Source of the DNA: Phycisphaerae bacterium
GTDB taxonomy: Bacteria > Planctomycetota > Phycisphaerae > SM23-33
DNA: 55,996 bases
Reading direction: 5' to 3'
Assembly: GCA_011050235.1 (NCBI GenBank)
Contig: DRGC01000063.1
Coordinates: 1 to 55,996 of the forward strand
Positions 35,413 through 55,996 of the stretch are shown here, in pieces (positions within the stretch are counted from its first letter, which is position 1; each line of letters begins with the position of its first letter). The notes under the pieces are model-generated. The model was not told the origin of the DNA. It worked only from the letters and a program-made list of their open reading frames with translations, and ran no database searches. A program made the translations under genes and the position numbers.

Positions 35413-36492
35413 CTACGCCCGTCGACGCAACAGCGCCAGACCGCCCAGGGCCAGCAAACCAATGGTGACAGGCTCTGGTACAGCGGGGTCGGCGATGAAG
35501 CCGAAGTTCGTCTTCAAGATCGCCAGGTCCGTGCCGTCGACGAAAAGGTCGGGGTTGGCGTTGCCGTCCGCATAGCCCATGCCCGGCTGGCCGAACGCGG
35601 TCTTCATCAGCGCCAGGTCCGTGCCATCCACGAAACCGTCCAGATTGAAGTCGCCTCGCCTCGTGCCGAGACGTCCCGAACCATCGGTCAACTCGACGAG
35701 GTTCTCGACGTGCCAAATCATGTCGTCTTCATCGACGTCACCATCGCCATCGGCATCGTAGGTGGCCGGGTCGCCGCCCATGTTGGCGCGGAGAAGGTCG
35801 ACATCATCGGCGTCAACATCCCCATCGTCATCGTAGTCGCCGGGGGTCGTGGCGAGAATTGCCGGGCCGAGGACCGTGCCGTTGGACTGCCCCACGCGGC
35901 GGAGGCTGAGGAGCGTCCAGTTGATGGGGCCGGGCGCGTATGGGTGGACGATACGGAAGGTGAGCAGCAGGCCCTCTACGACCCGGTTCTGAGCGTTGGA
36001 GATGAAGGCCAGGCTCTCACCGTCATCGGCGACCTTTCCTGCCCACATGAACGCCGGGAACGGGCCGTCTGCAACGTACTCGCTGGGTGCATGCCAGGGG
36101 TTGTCCATGGACCAGTCATTGCCTTCCAATATCCAAGGTCCCGTGCCACCGACGGCGTAGGAACCGTAAGCATAACGCTCGTAATAGACGGGCTCATGCG
36201 CTACGTGGAAATCCCACTTCTGGCGCAGCGATCCGGTCCTGCCCCACCCGGACCAAGGCCATTGGTTTTCGATCGCGCTGGCGTCGAAGCCGCTCAGGGT
36301 TACTCTGTCGACCGGAGAAGCATCGCCGTAGACATCGTAAACGTACTCCCACATGCCGGGAAAATCGGCGCCATCGCCCAAGAACGTTGGGTCCTCGGCC
36401 AGCACAATGGTCCCAGGAGAAGCGCCCAAGGCGGCGCCACCTGCGATGGCTAGTGTCGCCAGTACCAGTAATGTCAGAAGTTGTCGTTTCAT
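35413..36492 (-). CDS. exported protein with dockerin-like repeats and PEP-CTERM tail, first copy
   Basis: The 359-residue product has a signal peptide (about 1-24), an unrecognised N-terminal domain rich in Trp, Tyr and Gly ('DFPGMWEYVYDVYGDASP'), and four Asp-rich calcium-binding-like segments in the second half: 'GDYDDDGDVDADDVDLL', 'YDADGDGDVDEDDMIWHVE', 'GDFNLDGFVDGTDLALMKTA', and 'ADGNANPDLFVDGTDLAILK'. These resemble type I dockerin repeats. The end 'VPEPVTIGLLALGGLALLRRRA' is a PEP-CTERM signal. The ATG at 36492 is preceded by AAAGGG. The C-terminal coding DNA is almost identical to that of the gene at 38930-40345, and the N-terminal domains are also related ('GDDFPGMWEYAYS' there). 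Confidence 0.9.
   Translation of the reverse strand: MKRQLLTLLVLATLAIAGGAALGASPGTIVLAEDPTFLGDGADFPGMWEYVYDVYGDASPVDRVTLSGFDASAIENQWPWSGWGRTGSLRQKWDFHVAHEPVYYERYAYGSYAVGGTGPWILEGNDWSMDNPWHAPSEYVADGPFPAFMWAGKVADDGESLAFISNAQNRVVEGLLLTFRIVHPYAPGPINWTLLSLRRVGQSNGTVLGPAILATTPGDYDDDGDVDADDVDLLRANMGGDPATYDADGDGDVDEDDMIWHVENLVELTDGSGRLGTRRGDFNLDGFVDGTDLALMKTAFGQPGMGYADGNANPDLFVDGTDLAILKTNFGFIADPAVPEPVTIGLLALGGLALLRRRA
35444..35544. repeat. 101 bp near-identical block, copy 1 (with 38970-39070)
   Basis: This block matches 38970-39070 with a single A/G difference. It encodes the last dockerin-like segment and the start of the PEP-CTERM tail of two neighbouring genes. The genes differ much more outside it. 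Confidence 0.9.
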
Positions 36493-38132: not shown

Positions 38133-38277
38133 TCCCTCCGGACCCATGGGGGAAGAACGCGCCGTCGGCCGTTATGGCGACTCAGTGGCGTCCAGTCCGA
38201 CCAACGGCTTGTGACGTCGGTACTGGCTTGAGATGCCGGCGGCCTCTTCTGCCTCATCCAAATCGCCCCGATGCTGC

Positions 38278-38587
38278 GGCTCAACTCTCGCGGAAAGAAC
38301 CGCCACCCGAATTGCGCGTTGCTCTCAAGGAATTCGCCGTTCTTGACAAAAAAGCTGGTCGAGTACCCATATCCAAGCACTCGCAGCGATCCCTCCAGAA
38401 GCCCCAAGAGCACACCAGGCACGACCAACCCGAGGATCAAGGCGGCGATCGCCCTGCGCAGGCGACTGCGCTTCTTCTTCGGCAACGGTATGCCATTCTT
38501 CGGCGAGGGCTTGGCGTCTTTCTGCGAGGGCCCGGCGTTCTTGGGCGAAGGATTGGCAGGTTTCGGCTTTTTCGAGCGTGAGGCCAT
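38278..38587 (-). pseudogene. truncated SGNH/TPR gene, N-terminal part only
   Basis: From an ATG at 38587 the minus strand encodes about 103 residues that match the start of the SGNH proteins at 42188 and 44909: a basic Lys/Pro-rich head ('KPSPKNGIPLPKKKRSR'), a membrane helix ('ALILGLVVPGVLLGLLEGSL'), 'RVLGYGYSTSFFVKNGEF' and 'FGWRFFPRELSR'. Homology then stops, and the open frame runs on without meaning into the antisense of the RidA-like gene, ending at 37982. The catalytic SGNH domain is absent. It has the same orientation as the relic at 36613. Confidence 0.7.
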
Positions 38588-38929: not shown

Positions 38930-40345
38930 CTAGCTCTTGCGACGCCGTCTGGCCATCAGGCCTGTTGCTCCCAGGGCCAGCAAACCAATGGTGACAGGCT
39001 CTGGTACAGCGGGGTCGGCGATGAAGCCGAAGTTCGTCTTCAGGATCGCCAGGTCCGTGCCGTCGACGAAGGCGTCGCAGTTGGCGTTGCCGTCGGCATA
39101 GTTCTGGTCCGGCAGGCCGAAGGCGGTCTTCATCAGCGCCAGGTCCGTCCCATCGATCAGGCCGTCGAGGTTGAAGTCGCCGCGCTTGGTGCCCGCGCGA
39201 ACGCCATCGGTCAGCCCGACGAGGTTCTCGATCAGAAAGATCATGTCGGCCTCGTCGGCGTCGCCGTCGCCATCCAGGTCGTAGGCCGCATCACCCAGGT
39301 TGGCGCAAAGCTCAGTGATATCATCGGCATCGACAAAGCCGTCGCCGGTGAAGTCGCCGAGGACGCCCACACTTGGTTCCGGGCCAAGGAGCGTGTCCGT
39401 GACTCTTTGACCGCCGGTGTGGTACGTGCCGCCGGTAATCTCGCCGGGGGAGTCGGAGGAGACGATTCGGACGGTCATGAAAAGGCCCGTAGAGCCAAAG
39501 TAATTCAGGATGCCGGAGGTATTTTCGAACCACACTTCATCGGTGTTGTGGTCGCTGACGTAGTAGGTGTAGAAGTCATCGTCAACGTAGGTGTCATCTT
39601 CGTTATCCGGGATGCCATCCGGTCCGGGATCGACCGATACCGGACCTACAATGCCGTCTGCGCCAGAATTGACCCACTCCTGCGTTCGGGTGCTGTGGGA
39701 CACGCCGCCCCTGGGGAAGAGGATGTTGCCTTGCCCGTAGGCGGTGCCGGCGCGCCACTCGTTGTCGTAGGCCCAACTGGTGCTGTCCCAACTGGGATCG
39801 GTGGGCTCGATCCACGCGCCGATCAACGGGCCGCCGGGGAAGGCCTCTTCCTGGCCCCACGTGGATGGCCATAGCTGGGGGTAGAGCCCGCCGCCCCACT
39901 GCCTGGGGATGCCAGCCGAGTTGGCGCACCAAATCTGCCGGACCCTGTAGTTCCAGGAGTCGGTGGCGGTGGCGGGGTCCCAGAGGATGGGATCAGCGAC
40001 ATAGTAGTCGTCACGGCTGCCAAAGGGGTCACCGAGGTCATCCACGACGCCATCGGGATTGTACCAGCCGGGTGATTTCCAGCGGTTGACGATGTTGTCC
40101 ACGTTCAGGCCGTTGAGGTAGCCATCACTAAAGTGGGTGTAGTTGCTGCCTCCGGCATCGGTCGTGCCGACGGCGGAGTAGGCGTATTCCCACATCCCGG
40201 GGAAGTCGTCACCTGGGCCCAGTAGGCGATAGTCATCCAGTACCATGACGGTGTCGCCGGGGACCGATGGGCGGTCCGCCGAAGCAACATTGGCCGTGAC
40301 CATCACCAGCGCCGCGACGGCGATTGTGATTCTGCCTAGTTTCAT
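38930..40345 (-). CDS. exported protein with dockerin-like repeats and PEP-CTERM tail, second copy
   Basis: The 471-residue product has a signal peptide (about 1-24), a first domain that resembles its neighbour's ('VMVLDDYRLLGPGDDFPGMW'), a longer middle with 'GGTYHTGGQRVTDTLLGPE', then Asp-rich repeats: 'GDFTGDGFVDADDITELC', 'YDLDGDGDADEADMIFLIE', 'GDFNLDGLIDGTDLALMKTA' and 'NCDAFVDGTDLAILKTNFGF'. It ends in 'VPEPVTIGLLALGATGLMARRRRKS', a PEP-CTERM signal. The ATG at 40345 follows AAAGGA. It is about 110 residues longer than the first copy, mainly in the middle. It is presumably sorted to the cell surface by an exosortase, which is not in this window. Confidence 0.9.
   Translation of the reverse strand: MKLGRITIAVAALVMVTANVASADRPSVPGDTVMVLDDYRLLGPGDDFPGMWEYAYSAVGTTDAGGSNYTHFSDGYLNGLNVDNIVNRWKSPGWYNPDGVVDDLGDPFGSRDDYYVADPILWDPATATDSWNYRVRQIWCANSAGIPRQWGGGLYPQLWPSTWGQEEAFPGGPLIGAWIEPTDPSWDSTSWAYDNEWRAGTAYGQGNILFPRGGVSHSTRTQEWVNSGADGIVGPVSVDPGPDGIPDNEDDTYVDDDFYTYYVSDHNTDEVWFENTSGILNYFGSTGLFMTVRIVSSDSPGEITGGTYHTGGQRVTDTLLGPEPSVGVLGDFTGDGFVDADDITELCANLGDAAYDLDGDGDADEADMIFLIENLVGLTDGVRAGTKRGDFNLDGLIDGTDLALMKTAFGLPDQNYADGNANCDAFVDGTDLAILKTNFGFIADPAVPEPVTIGLLALGATGLMARRRRKS
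38970..39070. repeat. 101 bp near-identical block, copy 2 (with 35444-35544)
   Basis: Second copy of the block described at 35444. The near identity against a diverged background points to recent duplication or gene conversion. Confidence 0.9.
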
Positions 40346-41752: not shown

Positions 41753-42187
41753 ATGATACTGCACGTCTCGCTGCAGAGGCCCTTGTCTTGCGTCGTTATC
41801 GGCGCGCCCCGCAAACATTTGACCAACACAGGAGATATGTCAATCAAGCAGGCGCGAGCGAGATGGGCCCGGTTCTGCTTCCTGGAGGGGGGAGAACCCC
41901 GGAGGGTAAAATTACGGCGTTCACCTGATCGGTGGGCCCTGTTGGGCTTGGTTATGTCTGGAGAGGATAGCCTGTCGTCGGCGGAGGCCCTTGCCGACCT
42001 ACACGCGTCAAGAGCGCTCGCGGCGATCGGCCTGGCTGCCCGCGGCGTTCGGTTGGCAATCGCAGGTGCGGACACGCCCGCACTAACGAGATTGACACTG
42101 GCATGGGGTAGATCGGGCCTCTATGATCCGCACGCGCGGCCGCCACCACGAAGGCCGGCCCGTTCTGCAGGCAACAGGGAGAGCTGA
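41753..42187 (+). CDS. doubtful 144-codon open frame before the SGNH module
   Basis: The frame begins at an ATG inside the AT-rich region and stops one base before the SGNH gene start (TGA followed by ATG). A second ATG at 41837 has AGGAG only three bases ahead, which is too close. The product is Ala/Arg-rich with no recognised domain and no signal peptide. Its last codons lie in the block repeated at 44873, where no such frame ends in the same way. I think it is probably not a gene; otherwise 41431-42187 holds only the repeats and the promoter of the PEP-CTERM gene. Confidence 0.2.
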   Translation: MILHVSLQRPLSCVVIGAPRKHLTNTGDMSIKQARARWARFCFLEGGEPRRVKLRRSPDRWALLGLVMSGEDSLSSAEALADLHASRALAAIGLAARGVRLAIAGADTPALTRLTLAWGRSGLYDPHARPPPRRPARSAGNRES

Positions 42188-42340
42188 ATGAACTCGGACT
42201 CTGACAGCCCGGACGCTTGCAACCCCGCAGCGGGCCCCGCACACGAGGGCACGCGTCGCCCCAAGCCGCGACGGCGGCGGCGACGTTGGCGGTTCTACCT
42301 TATGACCGTGGTGGTCGTGCCGGCGCTGCTGCTGGGCCTG
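42152..42340. repeat. 5'-end block shared by the two SGNH genes, copy A
   Basis: This 189 bp block is matched by 44873-45058 (186 bp) with three substitutions and one three-base gap. It covers about 36 bases before the ATG and the coding region for the head and most of the membrane helix. Weaker similarity continues for another 30 bases. Confidence 0.9.
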
Positions 42341-44860
42341 CTGGAGGGGGGGCTGCGGATAGCGGGCTACGGGCATCGGCTGGGCTTCCTTATCAAGGCC
42401 GGCGATTTCTACCAGAGCAATCCGCGCTTCGGCTGGCGGTTCTTCCCGCGCGACATCAGCCGAGCGCCGTTGCCCATTCACCTGTCGATAGACAAACCGG
42501 CGGGGACTTACAGAATTGTCGTCGTCGGCGGGTCGGCCGCCATGGGCTACCCAGACGAGGCCTTTTCATTCTCCAGGTACCTGGAGGCGATGCTGCGGGA
42601 CAGCTACCCGGCGATTCGTTTCGAGCTGGCCAATGCGGCGATGACCGCGGCCAATTCTCACATGATGGTGCCCGCAGCCCGTGACTGCGCCAAACTCAAG
42701 CCGGACCTGCTTATCATCTATATGGGCAATAACGAAGTTGTGGGCCCCTACGGACCAGGCACGGTGTTCGCCGGGCCGTCGGCCAGCCTGCCGGTAATCC
42801 GCATGGGTCTGTGGGTCAAGGCCGCGCGTGTGGGACAACTGGTGAGCAACACGGTCGGCGTGGTGTCCGGCGGCAAAGGCTCGGCGGAATGGCGCGGGAT
42901 GACGATGTTCATGGAGAACCTCGTTCCGGCCGATGATGCCCGTCTGGCCGATACGTACCGCCACTTCCGCCGCAACCTGCAGGATATCTGCCGAGCGGGC
43001 GCCGACGTCGGAGCGGGCGTGATTATCTGCACCGTGCCGGTGGACGTGCGGCACTGTGCGCCATTCGCCTCGACGCACCGCGACGGGCTAGGAGCCGAAG
43101 ACCTCATGCGATGGCAGGGCGCCTACGAGCAAGGCGTTACCCAGGAGCGCGCCGGCTTGTACGAGCAGGCCCTCAAACACTTCGCAGAGGCCATGGCCCT
43201 GGACGACCGCAGCGCGGATCTGCACTTCCGTCTGGGGCGGTGTTACGTTGAACTGGGCAAGCCTGGTGAAGCATTCGAGCACTTCAGGCAAGCCAGAGAG
43301 CTGGACGCGCTTCGGTTCCGGGCTGATGCGACGATCAACGACACGATTCGCCAGGTAGCCCGGGACTCCGACGGGCAGGTGACGCTGGTAGACGCCGAGC
43401 GGGCGTTCGGGACACTCGCCGACGTGGCGGGCAGCCCGGGCGAGGAGCTTTTTCTCGACCACGTCCACCCCAACTACCGCGGCAGCTATGAGCTGGCTCG
43501 CAGTGTCTTCCAAGCCGTCATGACGCAGTTGCCCGCGGGGGCCGGAGGCGACGGGAACGTCGAGGCGCCAACCTTCGAGCGATGCAATGACCTGCTGGCG
43601 CTGACCCACTCGGATCGCCTTCGACACGCCGCCTCCCTGTGGCAACTCACACGGGGGCCGCCATTCACCAATCAACTGAATTACAAGGACGTGCGCGGGC
43701 GAATGCTGGCCCGCCGGGAGGCCCTGTGGGCGAAAACTGTCCCAGAAGCCGACATGTTGGCCACCTACGATTCGGCATCCGCAGCCGCCCCCCAAGACGC
43801 GACGCTGCACATCTTTGCCGCCACCATCCATGGCAAGAGGCGGAACTTCCCCGTCGTCGCCCAGCACCTAGCCGAAGCCAAACGCCTGCGGCCCAACGAG
43901 GCGCAAATTTACTTCCTCGAGGCAACGATGTACCTGGACCAGGGCGACCTGCCTGAAGCTGAACGAGCCGTGGGCGCGTATCTGGACCTGCTGGACCACT
44001 CCCTGCCTAGTTATATCGCGGCGGTCAATCTGTTCGGGGCCTTCGGCAACCCCGTCAACGCGGAGGCGTATGCCCGCCAGGTCGTCCGCCGCATGCCCGA
44101 GCACGCGGCCGCATTGACGCTGCTGGCGAAGATCATCAAGTACCGCCTTCGCGTCGATCAAGCGGAGTACCGGCAGGGCCTGGCCGAAGCGGAGAACCTG
44201 CTGACCCAGGCTATTGGCCTCCAGCCGGAGTACCCCAACGCGTGGCTCCAGTTGGGCGAGGCCCAGCGGGCCACCGGCAGACTGTCAGAAGCGTCGGCGT
44301 CTTTCCGCCGTGCCGTTGAACTGGACCCATCCTTATCAGGGGCCTACGTGGGGATGGGCATGATGCTCTTCCGCCAGGGACACGTGCAGCAGGCCAAGGC
44401 CTGGCTGGCAAGAGCTGTCGAGCTGTCTCCCGACGACCTGTCGACGACGGCCAAGTATGCCGAACTGTTGTGCATGGACGGCAGCATTCGCCAGGCGGCG
44501 GCGTTGTTGCGGCGGGCGCTGCGGATCAGCCCGGACCTGCCGCCGATCACGGGAAAGCTGGCGTGGGTGTTGGCCACCTCAGCCGATCCGCAACTGCGCA
44601 ACGGCCCGGAGGCCGTCCGCCTGGCTGAGAGCGCCTTGGCCAAGAGCGAGGGGCGCCCTTCAACGATGCTGGTCTTGGCGGCGGCATACGCAGCCGACGG
44701 GCAGTTCCCCAAGGCCATCGCCATGGCGAACCAGGCTCTTGATAGGGCGCATGTCATTGGAAATGCAGCGCTGGCAAATCGCCTAGAGGATCATCTCGCC
44801 CGCTACGGCAGGGCTCAGGCCCTCAGTCTTGACAGCTACGACCGCCTCGAAGGCTGGTAG
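42188..44860 (+). CDS. membrane-anchored SGNH-hydrolase-like protein with C-terminal TPR repeats
   Basis: The 890-residue protein has a basic, polar head, one membrane helix (about 36-52, 'YLMTVVVVPALLLGLLEGG'), then an SGNH/GDSL-like domain: Ser116 in 'VVVGGSAAMG', 'ELANAAMTAANSHMM', Asn in 'LLIIYMGNNEVVGPYGPG' (181-183), and Asp424/His427 in 'LFLDHVHPN'. So Ser, Asn and the Asp/His pair of the fold are all present. A TPR pair (about 315-375) is inserted before the last block, and residues 550-890 hold at least seven more TPR-like repeats ('GEAQRATGRLSEASASFRRA'). The active part is probably outside the cytoplasm. The ATG follows GGGAGAG. Substrate is unknown; an ester or acetyl group is typical of the fold. 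Confidence 0.8.
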   Translation: MNSDSDSPDACNPAAGPAHEGTRRPKPRRRRRRWRFYLMTVVVVPALLLGLLEGGLRIAGYGHRLGFLIKAGDFYQSNPRFGWRFFPRDISRAPLPIHLSIDKPAGTYRIVVVGGSAAMGYPDEAFSFSRYLEAMLRDSYPAIRFELANAAMTAANSHMMVPAARDCAKLKPDLLIIYMGNNEVVGPYGPGTVFAGPSASLPVIRMGLWVKAARVGQLVSNTVGVVSGGKGSAEWRGMTMFMENLVPADDARLADTYRHFRRNLQDICRAGADVGAGVIICTVPVDVRHCAPFASTHRDGLGAEDLMRWQGAYEQGVTQERAGLYEQALKHFAEAMALDDRSADLHFRLGRCYVELGKPGEAFEHFRQARELDALRFRADATINDTIRQVARDSDGQVTLVDAERAFGTLADVAGSPGEELFLDHVHPNYRGSYELARSVFQAVMTQLPAGAGGDGNVEAPTFERCNDLLALTHSDRLRHAASLWQLTRGPPFTNQLNYKDVRGRMLARREALWAKTVPEADMLATYDSASAAAPQDATLHIFAATIHGKRRNFPVVAQHLAEAKRLRPNEAQIYFLEATMYLDQGDLPEAERAVGAYLDLLDHSLPSYIAAVNLFGAFGNPVNAEAYARQVVRRMPEHAAALTLLAKIIKYRLRVDQAEYRQGLAEAENLLTQAIGLQPEYPNAWLQLGEAQRATGRLSEASASFRRAVELDPSLSGAYVGMGMMLFRQGHVQQAKAWLARAVELSPDDLSTTAKYAELLCMDGSIRQAAALLRRALRISPDLPPITGKLAWVLATSADPQLRNGPEAVRLAESALAKSEGRPSTMLVLAAAYAADGQFPKAIAMANQALDRAHVIGNAALANRLEDHLARYGRAQALSLDSYDRLEGW

Positions 44861-44872
44861 GATCCGCCAGGC

Positions 44873-45058
44873 AGGCCGGCCCGTTCTGCAGGCAACAGAG
44901 AGAGCTGAATGAACTCGGACTCCGACAGCCCGAACGCTTGCAACCCCGCAGCGGGCCCCGCACACGAGGGCACGCGTCGCCCCAAGCCGCGGCGGCGGCG
45001 ACGTTGGCGGTTCTACCTTATGACCGTGGTGGTCGTGCCGGCGCTGCTGCTGGGCCTG
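44873..45058. repeat. 5'-end block shared by the two SGNH genes, copy B
   Basis: Second copy of the block at 42152, with the ribosome binding region, ATG and membrane anchor of the second SGNH gene. Three bases of a CGG run are missing compared with copy A. Confidence 0.9.
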
Positions 45059-46495
45059 GCGGAGGCGGGCCTGCGGATAGCGGGCTACGGATACGACGTG
45101 CGTTTCTGGGTGAAGGACGAAGCCGCCGGGCGGCATGTGGTCAACGAGGACTTCGGTCTGCGGTTCTTCCCGCCATCGCTAGTGCGGGTGCCCTTCCCAG
45201 TATCTGTGGCCAGCGAGAAGCCCGACGGCGCCTACCGCATCTTCGTCATGGGCGGCTCGGCGGCCCAGGGCATACCGGACCCGAGCTTCAGTGTCGGGAG
45301 CATCCTGGAGACCATGCTCGCCGAGACGTATCCCGACGCGAGTTTCGAGGTTGTCACCGCCGCGATGACGGGCATTAACTCTCACGTTGTGCTTCCCATC
45401 GCGCGTGATTGTGCTCGGCGCGAGCCAGACCTGTTCATCATCTACTTGGGCAACAATGAAGTCGTCGGGCCGTTCGGCGCCGGGACGGTTTTCGCCGGCT
45501 ACTCGCCGAGCTTGTCGATGATCCGCGCCAGCCTTGCAGCCCGGACGATCAAGCTGGGCCAGTTGGTCGAGGACCTCGCCCGCAAGGCGCCCGGCAAGGA
45601 GAGCCCCAAGGAATGGGCCGGCATGGAGATGTTCATGAGCAACGTCGTGTCGGCCGACGACCCAAGGCTCGACGGCGTCTACAGCCATTTCCGGCAGAAC
45701 CTACGGGACATCTGCCGGGCCGGGCGCCAGGCGGGCGCCGACACGATTCTGTGTACGGTGGCGGTCAATCTGCGAGACTGCTCGCCGTTCGCCTCGACCC
45801 ACAAGGCGGGCCTGAGCGAGGCGGAGCTGGCGCAGTGGGAGCAGGGCTTCGAGGCGGGGATCGAACGGGCGGATGCAGGCGACTGCGAACAAGCCATCGG
45901 GCACTTCCTCACAGCGGCCGCCATTGACGACCGGTATGCCGAGCTCCAGTTCCGTTTGGGCCAATGCTACCTTGCCGAGGGGCAAGAGCAGCCGGCCCGC
46001 CACGCCTTCTTCGCTGCTCGTGAACTGGATGCTCTGCGGTTCCGGGCGGATTCCCGGATCAACCGGATCATCCGCGAGGTCGCCGACGAAGAAGGCGCGG
46101 GCGTGCACCTCGTCGACGCTGAGCGGGCGATGAGCAAGTCGGACAAGTCGGTGGCGGGCCTTGCTGGCGAGGAGTTCTTCTTCGAGCATGTTCACATGAC
46201 CTTCGACGGCAACTACGAGGTCGCTCGGGCTATGTTCCCCGTGGTCGTCGGGCTTCTTCCCGATGCGATTCGCGCCAAGGGCCCGGAGTCACCCACCCCG
46301 CCGACGAGGGCCCAAGCCGCCAAGGTGATGGGGCTGACCGCATGGCTGCAGGCGCAGATGTTCTCCTACATGCTCCAGATGACCGAACACCCGCCGTTCA
46401 CGGGGCAGTTCGATCACGCCCAGCGGCGCGGGGCCTTGAAGGAAATGGTTCGCCGATTCGAATCGCAAGACGACGCGCGCGGCGAAGTGAGGTAG
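44909..46495 (+). CDS. membrane-anchored SGNH-hydrolase-like protein, shorter paralogue
   Basis: The 528-residue product repeats the head and membrane helix of the preceding protein almost exactly, then diverges. The SGNH motifs are Ser117 in 'FVMGGSAAQG', 'VVTAAMTGINSHVVLPIARD', 'DLFIIYLGNNEVVGPFGAG' and, in the last block, 'FFFEHVHM', where the usual Asp of DxxH is Glu. A TPR-like pair is again inserted before that block ('GDCEQAIGHFLTAAAIDD'). The long C-terminal TPR region of the first protein is missing: the protein ends about 70 residues after the catalytic domain. It starts 48 bases after the first gene and is probably in the same transcript. Confidence 0.8.
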   Translation: MNSDSDSPNACNPAAGPAHEGTRRPKPRRRRRWRFYLMTVVVVPALLLGLAEAGLRIAGYGYDVRFWVKDEAAGRHVVNEDFGLRFFPPSLVRVPFPVSVASEKPDGAYRIFVMGGSAAQGIPDPSFSVGSILETMLAETYPDASFEVVTAAMTGINSHVVLPIARDCARREPDLFIIYLGNNEVVGPFGAGTVFAGYSPSLSMIRASLAARTIKLGQLVEDLARKAPGKESPKEWAGMEMFMSNVVSADDPRLDGVYSHFRQNLRDICRAGRQAGADTILCTVAVNLRDCSPFASTHKAGLSEAELAQWEQGFEAGIERADAGDCEQAIGHFLTAAAIDDRYAELQFRLGQCYLAEGQEQPARHAFFAARELDALRFRADSRINRIIREVADEEGAGVHLVDAERAMSKSDKSVAGLAGEEFFFEHVHMTFDGNYEVARAMFPVVVGLLPDAIRAKGPESPTPPTRAQAAKVMGLTAWLQAQMFSYMLQMTEHPPFTGQFDHAQRRGALKEMVRRFESQDDARGEVR

Positions 46496-46668: not shown

Positions 46669-46696
46669 GACAATGCGATCAGGAGAACACCGACAG

Positions 46697-48604
46697 ATGT
46701 CCCCAGCAAGAGACACCGACCAATCCCCCGACGCCCCTTCACCGCAGACGGATTCTTCAACGGACAAGCAGACCGTTGCGACCGGCCGCCGCCGGAAAGC
46801 GCTGACGGTGCTGTTCTTTGGGCTGCTGGTGGCTCACGTGGCGGGCAACATCGACCCACAAGTGCTCTACCAGGGAGATGAGGTGTTGACCGCTGACAAA
46901 ACGATCCCCGTCTTTCCCGCCTATCTACGGGGCAGGGACTTTCTGGCGCCTTTCCTCGCTGTCTCCGGCGGGCTGACCGACTACGTCGGCGCCAACGTCA
47001 GCCAGTACTTCAGCATCCCGTATGGCGGCGCAGCCGTTCTGGCGGCGGTGGCGCTGGTGGCCTTCCTGGCTACGGGCAGTATCATGTCGCTGGCAGGCGA
47101 CAAGGCCGAGAGCCTGCTGCGGTTTGTCCCGCCGATCCTGCTCGTGATCATCTGGAACCGCTACACATTCGTTCTGGCCGACCAATTGGCGTTGCTGGCG
47201 GCCCTGCTGGTTGTGTGCCTCTACTTCCGCTTGCCGAACAGGGCTCGCCTCAGAGCGGCTGTCGCCCTACCGGCAATCCTGGTCTTCTATTACCTGGCCG
47301 GTGGGCTGTGCATGCTGGCGGCGGCGATGTGCGGGCTATATGAACTGCTCGCCAAGCGGCGGAAGGTCGGATGGGCGTACCTTGTGGTTGGGGCGATAAC
47401 GCCTCTGGTGGTGGGCTCGTTGCTGGGCGACACGTTCGCACAGCCTTACCTGCGGCTGACAGGTCTCTCCGGCGGCCTGGTGGCGACGGCCGCGTGGATG
47501 GGGTTGTACGGGTTCTTCCTCGTCCTGATGGCGGCTCTTGCTATCGGCAGCCGGCTGGGGTCGGCTGAGGAGAAAGCGGGGCAGGCGCGCGCTACGGGCG
47601 GGTTCGTGGCGATGTTGGTGGCGGCGATTGTTCTGTCGCTGGTGACATTGGATCGAGATGTCCGCACGTTCCGAAGACTGTGCTACTTCAACCAGGCGCA
47701 GCGCTGGCGTGAGGTCATCCTGCAGGCTCGCAAGCTTGTCATGGAATCGCCTGGGGAGTTGTACTCCGGCAGCACATGCAGAATGCTCAATCGAGCGTTG
47801 TTCGAGAGGAGACGCCTCGGCGTGAGAATGTTCGCATACCCCCAGGCGCGCTTGGGCGGTTTGTTGCTCGGTCGAGCAATGGACGAGCCGTACAAGTCCG
47901 ATTCACTGCTGCAATTGGGGGCCGTCGATCTTGCCGAAAGCCTGGCGCGGGAATCCCAGGACCGCTGGCCCGACAGGCCGTTCGTGCTGCGGCTGCTGGT
48001 AAAGATTGCCCTCGTCAAAGGGGACATGGCTGCGGCGAGAGGTCACTTGGAAACGCTGAGCAAAGATATCATCCACGGCCAGTTCGCCAAAGAGTTGCTG
48101 GCCAAGATCGACGGCGGCTACGACTTCGCGCGAGATGAGCAGATCGCCCGCATTCGCTCGTTCATGATCACCGCGAGGCCCCCAGGCCCGATGTCGTTAC
48201 GGGGAATGCTGGAGAAACTGGCGGACAAGAACCCGGATAACCGGATGGCGTTGGAGTACCTCCTGGCCTACGACCTGCTCAACCGGCAACTGGAACCGTT
48301 CGTTGCACGAGTCAAACAGATAGGGCGGTTCGATTATAGGTATCTCCCCCCCCATTACGCCGAGGCGATTCTGTTGCGCGCCGCCCGAACCAATCAGCGG
48401 CCCAACTTTGACGGACTGCCCGAGAAGGATCCGAGCATTCTGATCTCCGGGCCGATGTTCGTTCGCCTCTACGAGCAGCACAAGGCCGACCTGCCGGCCC
48501 TGCAGGCGGCGCTGGCCCGCGAGTTGCGGGGCAGCTACTACTGGTACTACTTCACGGCCATGCTGCAAGAGTCCAAACTCGCCGAGCAGTCGTCCGACAG
48601 ATAA
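46697..48604 (+). CDS. polytopic membrane protein with TPR-like C-terminal part
   Basis: The 635-residue protein has a polar N-terminal stretch of about 30 residues, then about nine hydrophobic helices up to residue 335 (for example 'ALTVLFFGLLVAHVAG', 'AAVLAAVALVAFLATGS', 'LLRFVPPILLVIIWN', 'ALPAILVFYYLAGGLCMLAAAM', 'GGFVAMLVAAIVLSLVTL'). The C-terminal 300 residues are helical and TPR-like ('QAQRWREVILQARKLVMESP', 'RGMLEKLADKNPDNRMALEYLLAYDLL', 'YYWYYFTAMLQES'). The layout recalls DUF6057 proteins, which I name with caution. It is the third plus-strand gene of the SGNH module. AGGAG precedes the ATG by 11 bases. Confidence 0.75.
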   Translation: MSPARDTDQSPDAPSPQTDSSTDKQTVATGRRRKALTVLFFGLLVAHVAGNIDPQVLYQGDEVLTADKTIPVFPAYLRGRDFLAPFLAVSGGLTDYVGANVSQYFSIPYGGAAVLAAVALVAFLATGSIMSLAGDKAESLLRFVPPILLVIIWNRYTFVLADQLALLAALLVVCLYFRLPNRARLRAAVALPAILVFYYLAGGLCMLAAAMCGLYELLAKRRKVGWAYLVVGAITPLVVGSLLGDTFAQPYLRLTGLSGGLVATAAWMGLYGFFLVLMAALAIGSRLGSAEEKAGQARATGGFVAMLVAAIVLSLVTLDRDVRTFRRLCYFNQAQRWREVILQARKLVMESPGELYSGSTCRMLNRALFERRRLGVRMFAYPQARLGGLLLGRAMDEPYKSDSLLQLGAVDLAESLARESQDRWPDRPFVLRLLVKIALVKGDMAAARGHLETLSKDIIHGQFAKELLAKIDGGYDFARDEQIARIRSFMITARPPGPMSLRGMLEKLADKNPDNRMALEYLLAYDLLNRQLEPFVARVKQIGRFDYRYLPPHYAEAILLRAARTNQRPNFDGLPEKDPSILISGPMFVRLYEQHKADLPALQAALARELRGSYYWYYFTAMLQESKLAEQSSDR

Positions 48605-54503: not shown

Positions 54504-55977
54504 CTACCGTCGCCCGACGGCCTGCAGGATGTTGACAAAATCGTCGGTCCAGAGCGATATGTTGGCCCGAGTGTTCTCTCTGACGTCGTCGCTGGTTGTG
54601 ATAAGGACATCGCTCCTGACGTTCCGACGTCGTGTCACCACCACCCATGTCGAAGGAGATTCGCCTTTCTTTCTCAAGGCCTCCGCCGACAGGCGAGAGC
54701 TGCTGAGGAGATAGGCGGGCCATGCCAGCTCGTCAGCCACCCGAAAAGCAATGGGTCCGAGCGACAGAAAGTTATTGGTCAGGTGCAGGGCCAGGATGCC
54801 GTCGGGCTTGAGCCGGTCCAGGTAGATCTCGAAGGCCTCCTTCGTCAGAAGGTGGACCGGAATCGCATCGCTGTTGAAGGCATCCACAACGAGCACGTCA
54901 AACGTTCCCGACGGGACCTTCTCCACCGACAGCCGGCCGTCCCCCAGAACAACGGGCGTCTCGGCCTCGCTTTCGGCAAGATAGTAGAACTGCTCCTTGG
55001 CCAGCCGCTCGACCTGGGGATTGATCTCATAGAAGTACATCACGTCGCCGGGCCTGCCGTAAGCGGCGATGGTGCCCGTCCCCAGGCCGATCACGCCAAT
55101 GGTGCGGTTGGACCTGTGTTCCATCAGACGCATCGCCAGGCCGATCCCGCTGTTGGGGCCGTAGTAACCGGTCGGCAAGGAGCGAAGGAAGGTGGGCTGA
55201 ACGAACTGGAACCCGTGCACCGTCGTGCCATGCCGCATCACGCGACGCGTCGATTTCGGGTTGTCGGGTTCCTGGGCCACCCTTAACACGCCGTAGAAGT
55301 TTCGGCCCATGAAAATGGAGTCAAAGCCCGATGTCGTGAACGCCGGCGCCACAAGCGCCACGATCATCGCCCCCACAGCCGCCACCGTCGACCCATAGCG
55401 GACAGCCGCCGGGAGGGCCTTGGGCCTGACCCACATCGCCAGCATCAGGCACACAGGCAGCGCCAGATAGACCTCCAGGTAATCCGACAACACCAGCGGG
55501 GCCACGACCGCCACCGCCACTCCGCCCAGCGCCCCGCCCAGGGCGATCGACAGGTAGTAGCCCGTCAGCCTCTTGGCCGGCGGGCGCAGACGAAACACCT
55601 CGCCGTGGCAGATCATACACCCCACGAACATCGCCAGAAGGTACAGCCCCGTCCGCATCGGAATCGAAATCGGAATATCCCTCATGCTGTATCGAACATA
55701 GAACACCCCCGCCCCCACCAGCACCAACCCGATCAGCATCCGCCCCCGCTGGTAAAAGTTCTCCTGATGGAAGCACAAAACGAACGTCAACAGGTACAGG
55801 GCCAGCGGCGCGATCCACAGAAACGGCACGGGCGCCAGGTCCTGGCAGACCAGATTGGTCGTCCCCAACAGCAGCACCGACCCCACCGCTGGAAACACAA
55901 TCCACCACCAGCGACCGTGAGAGGCGGAATCATCCCCGCTTCCCTCGTCGACCCGGAGCGCCTCAGCGGCCGGCGGT
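54504..55977 (-). CDS. membrane-bound spermidine-synthase-like protein, 5' end cut off
   Basis: About 490 residues remain of a protein with an N-terminal membrane domain of seven or so helices ('WWWIVFPAVGSVLLLGTTNLV', 'FLWIAPLALYLLTFVLCF', 'GLYLLAMFVGCMICHG', 'YYLSIALGGALGGVAVAVVAPLVL') and a C-terminal methyltransferase fold of the spermidine synthase type: 'TIGVIGLGTGTIAAYGRPGD', 'YFYEINPQVERLAKEQF' and 'DVLVVDAFNSDAIPVHLL'. The pairing of a polytopic domain with this fold is known in bacteria but without a settled function. Before residue 'PPAAEALR' the open frame reads the sequencing adapter, so the true start is missing. It converges with the GH127 gene. Confidence 0.8.
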
Positions 55978-55996
55978 CTGTCTCTTATACACATCT
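55978..55996. other. Nextera transposon-end adapter left on the contig
   Basis: The final bases CTGTCTCTTATACACATCT are exactly the 19-base mosaic end used in Nextera libraries. Read on the minus strand they encode the well-known artefact peptide 'MCIRDR'. This is untrimmed adapter, not genome. Confidence 0.97.

Follow-up and report, generated by a model that had tools for sequence, protein, structure and literature searches.

Two tandem genes for anchored SGNH/GDSL proteins in the window, i.e., the whole stretch of 55,996 nucleotides analyzed here, have a near-identical 5′ end joined to strongly diverged bodies. In our judgment this pattern probably arose by partial gene conversion, that is, by recent copying of a ~220 bp 5′ segment between the two genes, which is also the simplest account of it. 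The features concerned are the following:

42152..42372, plus strand: 5′ block copy 1, 97% identical to copy 2, with sharp limits on both sides
42188..44860, plus strand: gene 1, 890 aa, SGNH/GDSL protein with a membrane anchor and TPR repeats at the C-terminus (above the Pfam cut-off for Lipase_GDSL_2 and for TPR families)
42341..42353, plus strand: mosaic patch, four differences in the 3′ part of the tract (from the alignment and exact-identity runs)
44873..45090, plus strand: 5′ block copy 2, beginning 12 bases past the gene 1 stop codon
44909..46495, plus strand: gene 2, 528 aa, SGNH/GDSL protein with a membrane anchor but no C-terminal TPR solenoid (above the Pfam cut-off for Lipase_GDSL_2)
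46673..48604, plus strand: downstream gene, DUF6057 membrane protein (Pfam PF19529, E 1.5e-72)
38273..38587, minus strand: remnant of a third SGNH gene, with head, anchor and ~40 further residues (tblastn)

Extent and content of the shared 5′ tract

Base-by-base alignment of 42152-42340 (189 bp) with 44873-45058 (186 bp) gave three substitutions and one 3-base gap, exactly the count reported in the first-pass annotation. The substitutions are a G/A difference at 42178 within the Shine-Dalgarno region, a synonymous T/C difference at 42202 and a G/A difference at 42212 (Asp/Asn), whilst the gap sits in a CGG run and corresponds to a whole codon, with the reading frame kept. When the limits of the tract were set by a likelihood change-point fit, 211 of 218 ungapped positions were identical (97%), a match with a binomial probability of 2e-42 at the body rate. 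Identity fell to 0.57 downstream of the tract, over 1387 aligned body positions, and to 0.27, which is the chance level, over 164 positions upstream. The sharp step that had been expected near 42340/45058 does exist, but it lies at 42372/45090; the earlier 3′ limit was ~32 bases short, as the mosaic patch is followed by 20 identical bases (42353-42372) with a common ATA codon, unusual at the local GC content. This succession of a patch of four differences and 20 identical bases indicates a mosaic 3′ end. Over the whole block there are eight differences between the copies, distributed along its length, and the longest exact run in common comprises 69 bases. The two copies form a direct repeat, 2721 bp apart, and a whole-genome search revealed none beyond these two.

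The tract is made up, in this order, of a leader of 36 nt in which the Shine-Dalgarno region lies, the ATG, an Arg-rich head and a single membrane anchor, in line with the ribosome binding region, start codon, basic head and anchor previously assigned to the block. Its 3′ end falls at the family motif LRIAGYG, just behind the anchor, and its 5′ limit is near a GGCCGGCC palindrome, a proximity that may be a coincidence. No promoter-like site was found 5′ of the ATG inside the tract, and the promoter-like match that precedes gene 1 (42098-42127) lies outside the tract, on its 5′ side, and is not common to both copies. The genes are tandem and co-directional, with 48 bases between the stop codon of gene 1 and the start of gene 2; given the closeness of copy 2 to that stop codon, gene 2 would be carried on the transcript of gene 1 and is probably translated from it.

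With regard to domain content and catalytic blocks (Ser116, Asn181/Asn182 and His425 in gene 1 numbering, invariant across 8 homologues), both genes belong to the SGNH/GDSL hydrolase family, and hydrolase activity is predicted. A comparison by sequence with solved structures in the PDB matched the TPR part and nothing else of the proteins, and a literature search for SGNH proteins with TPR in planctomycetes found nothing. Homologues are mostly 669-992 aa long, in contrast to the 528 aa of gene 2 (44909-46495), in which the TPR solenoid of gene 1 and of most homologues is absent; gene 2 may be either truncated or a partner of gene 1 in function. The DUF6057 gene (46673-48604) possibly forms one operon with the SGNH genes; among the fetched SGNH loci, a DUF6057 gene was found nearby at one other locus only (L063). 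At the 3′ end of the contig, positions 55979-55996 read TGTCTCTTATACACATCT, a remnant of the Nextera transposon adapter, and consequently the open reading frame at 54504-55994 (minus strand) starts with an artificial MCIRDR.

Probable recent copying and the kinship of the bodies

Homologues in related genomes were considered together with 80 named contigs (80 of 287 loci taken in) from Planctomycetota, Verrucomicrobiota, Acidobacteriota, Aminicenantes and others. The head was the least conserved part of the family, the anchor/GYG motif being conserved at the protein level throughout. The block was found in 0 of 34 other genomes of the family, none of them from the same genus, where matches were 24-49 bases long and located in GC-rich DNA. 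Among 3741 pairs of 87 homologues, the window pair was unique in combining a near-identical head (identity of at least 0.8) with a diverged body, the DNA identities being 0.948 and 0.621, respectively; in all remaining pairs with a head DNA identity above 0.8, the body exceeded 0.85. Furthermore, of 50 residues common to both proteins in the best segment (residues 6-61), 49 had the same codon, compared to a background of 0.47 (permutation p 0.0005). This synonymous identity, confined to the tract, points to recent copying of DNA and not to protein constraint. A dispersed element carrying the block was ruled out, with two copies in the genome and only the short matches mentioned above in family genomes.

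The pair displays two hallmarks of segmental conversion, namely a sharp-edged tract of near-identity inside diverged homologues (97% falling to 57%) and an identity that reaches synonymous as well as non-coding sites (49/50 codons and the 36-nt leader). The first-pass annotation considered it likely that a 5′ cassette had recently been converted or swapped, a view that the identity step, the codon identity and the hypervariable heads support.

As had been noted from the sequence, the proteins differ greatly past the anchor, where the bodies are 57% identical in DNA and 48% in amino acids. The body of gene 2 is 53% identical to that of L038, a homologue from another genome. Depending on the tree, 1.3 to 1.7 changes per site separate the bodies of gene 1 and gene 2, about as many as separate each of them from homologues of other phyla; an AU test (p 0.355) neither supported nor rejected the two as sisters. 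Neither near-identical genes nor bodies that are clear sisters, as a whole-gene duplication would provide, were observed, and a recent whole-gene duplication alone does not explain the pattern. The earlier reasoning that an old duplication would not leave only the 5′ end alike is borne out by the step and the codon identity; the AU test does not establish the bodies as a simple duplicate pair. Recent import of one body was also rejected, with no compositional signal (GC3 of the bodies 0.79 and 0.83, close to neighbors) and no close donor found. The remnant at 38273-38587, previously described from 38278 as a decayed copy that retains the anchor layout and not the sequence, fits that description: basic head, anchor and GYG are present, the head sequence is its own, and with 43% identity to gene 1 and 37% to gene 2 (tblastn) it is somewhat nearer to gene 1.

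Proposed copying event and alternatives

According to the proposed mechanism, two tandem SGNH/GDSL genes that were long diverged, or separate in origin, would recently have come to share ~220 bp, from 36 bases before the ATG to LRIAGYG, the 5′ end of one gene being copied over that of the other, in either direction, through gene conversion within the chromosome or through a template switch. Copying would have been one-way, with resolution presumably in the short stretch of DNA that is conserved for the anchor/GYG motif and may have offered homology on the 3′ side, and the enzyme domains would have been left as before. The functional effect is probably small, both proteins receiving the same translation start, topology and anchor. 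In principle, the direct repeat could let gene 1 loop out, after which gene 2 would stand behind the upstream region of gene 1. Conversion between genes so unlike would be unusual: in a review of eukaryote systems, gene conversion occurs mainly above 80% identity (PMC3924818), and bodies of ~60% DNA identity are a poor substrate for homologous recombination, which counts against conversion. A phase-variable or shufflon-type 5′ cassette was rejected as well, since the genome holds two direct copies only, the single indel is an in-frame codon, and no inverted copies, silent cassettes or switching repeat tract were detected in it.

That the 5′ ends are alike through conservation was ruled out by the variable heads, the 0/34 genomes, the unique pair and the codon identity. 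In particular, purifying selection on the 5′ DNA or RNA (leader, start region, anchor) since an old duplication could draw on the family-wide protein conservation of the anchor/GYG motif; however, conservation across the family is lowest in the head, relatives lack the block, no second homologue pair is alike and synonymous sites are frozen in the tract only, which makes this explanation extremely improbable. A chimeric join in the short-read metagenome assembly might have created the second 5′ copy, in a genome of 98 contigs where the end of this very contig is an adapter remnant. Nevertheless, the eight differences are spread over the block, the longest exact common run is shorter than a usual read, and both genes are intact and in frame with anchors typical of the family, so that an assembly artefact is improbable.

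Less easily set aside, although still unlikely, is a recent tandem duplication of the whole gene, with one body later replaced through recombination with a diverged homologue, the old 5′ end being kept in both genes. This course of events would yield an identical pattern and is in keeping with the greater nearness of the gene 2 body to L038 than to gene 1 and with the lack of support for sister bodies. It requires two events, though, and both bodies are close to their neighbors in composition and no close donor was found. Partial gene conversion, by comparison, remains the explanation that we consider probable.

Possible exchange of gene ends in other loci, and parallels in other systems

Five other tandem pairs were present among the fetched loci (L049, L051, L064, L066 and L102). 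In L064 (Planctomycetota MAG CSMAG_2034), a tract over the anchor showed 30 of 33 same-residue codons identical, compared to a background of 0.47, with a permutation p of 0.0005, the lower limit that 2000 shuffles allow, and DNA identity dropped shortly past the same GYG motif. L064 resembles the window pair in being a tandem SGNH-TPR pair whose synonymous identity is limited to the anchor, but its tract leaves out the leader and head and its body shows less divergence (69% DNA identity). A weaker internal tract was found in L049 (p 0.018), and no tract in L051, L066 and L102. Patches of 92-95% DNA identity were also observed within the enzyme body at L049:562-5135, which suggests conversion in the enzyme body as well. 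The tracts of the window pair and of L064 indicate that anchor-centered exchange took place at least twice, but six pairs are too few to make it a rule. A phylum-wide search for more tandem pairs found little, and is an under-count, with at most 4 candidates scored per genome.

Segmental conversion with limits ~60-240 bp from the start codon is known from babA/babB/babC of Helicobacter pylori (PMC4552749), in which, as in the SGNH pair, related genes exchange 5′ segments and the variable middle is untouched (PMC4552749). In contrast to the SGNH pair, which shares the 5′ end only, the bab genes also share a conserved 3′ part; phase-variable CT repeats may also be part of the 5′ end that they exchange, whereas no switch was seen here, and they encode outer-membrane adhesins instead of anchored SGNH proteins. 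The SGNH pair is a well-supported new example of this known process and a fairly ordinary case of it.

A further terminal segment is repeated at the 3′ end of genes of this organism, including these copies in the window:

35413-35700, minus strand: dockerin + PEP-CTERM 3′ segment, 288 bp, with 41 genome matches, itself included
38970-39223, minus strand: further copy of the dockerin + PEP-CTERM 3′ cassette

The carriers lie at ~40 places in the genome and have unlike bodies. For 136 pairs of cassette genes, the last 260 bp had a median identity of 0.80, the preceding 200 bp of 0.70 and the sequence further upstream of 0.51, which is about chance for such alignments; single pairs reached 0.97. 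Such similarity in DNA speaks for repeated copying of gene ends that carry signals in this organism, by a mechanism that may differ from that of the SGNH block. A literature search for dockerin with PEP-CTERM in planctomycetes found nothing. PEP-CTERM is known to expand as a module within a species (PMC1569441). That expansion (PMC1569441) resembles the SGNH block as a terminal targeting module within one genome on unlike bodies, but the PEP-CTERM cassette is a 3′ end with dozens of dispersed copies and the SGNH block a 5′ end of two tandem genes. It is a tentative and rather doubtful generalization that signal or anchor gene ends of these planctomycetes are exchanged recurrently as DNA cassettes (5′ in the SGNH genes here and in L064, 3′ in dockerin/PEP-CTERM genes), re-addressing bodies that stay unchanged, and that the 5′ direct repeat permits precise loss of gene 1.

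Localized copying where the remaining DNA is ~60% identical is harder to explain than ordinary conversion. For the SGNH pair, the N-terminal similarity is the strongest between the two genes, yet it is uninformative on their age or kinship. Together, the 5′ tract and the 3′ cassette suggest that signal-bearing gene ends act as units of exchange in planctomycetes, which more genomes can test.
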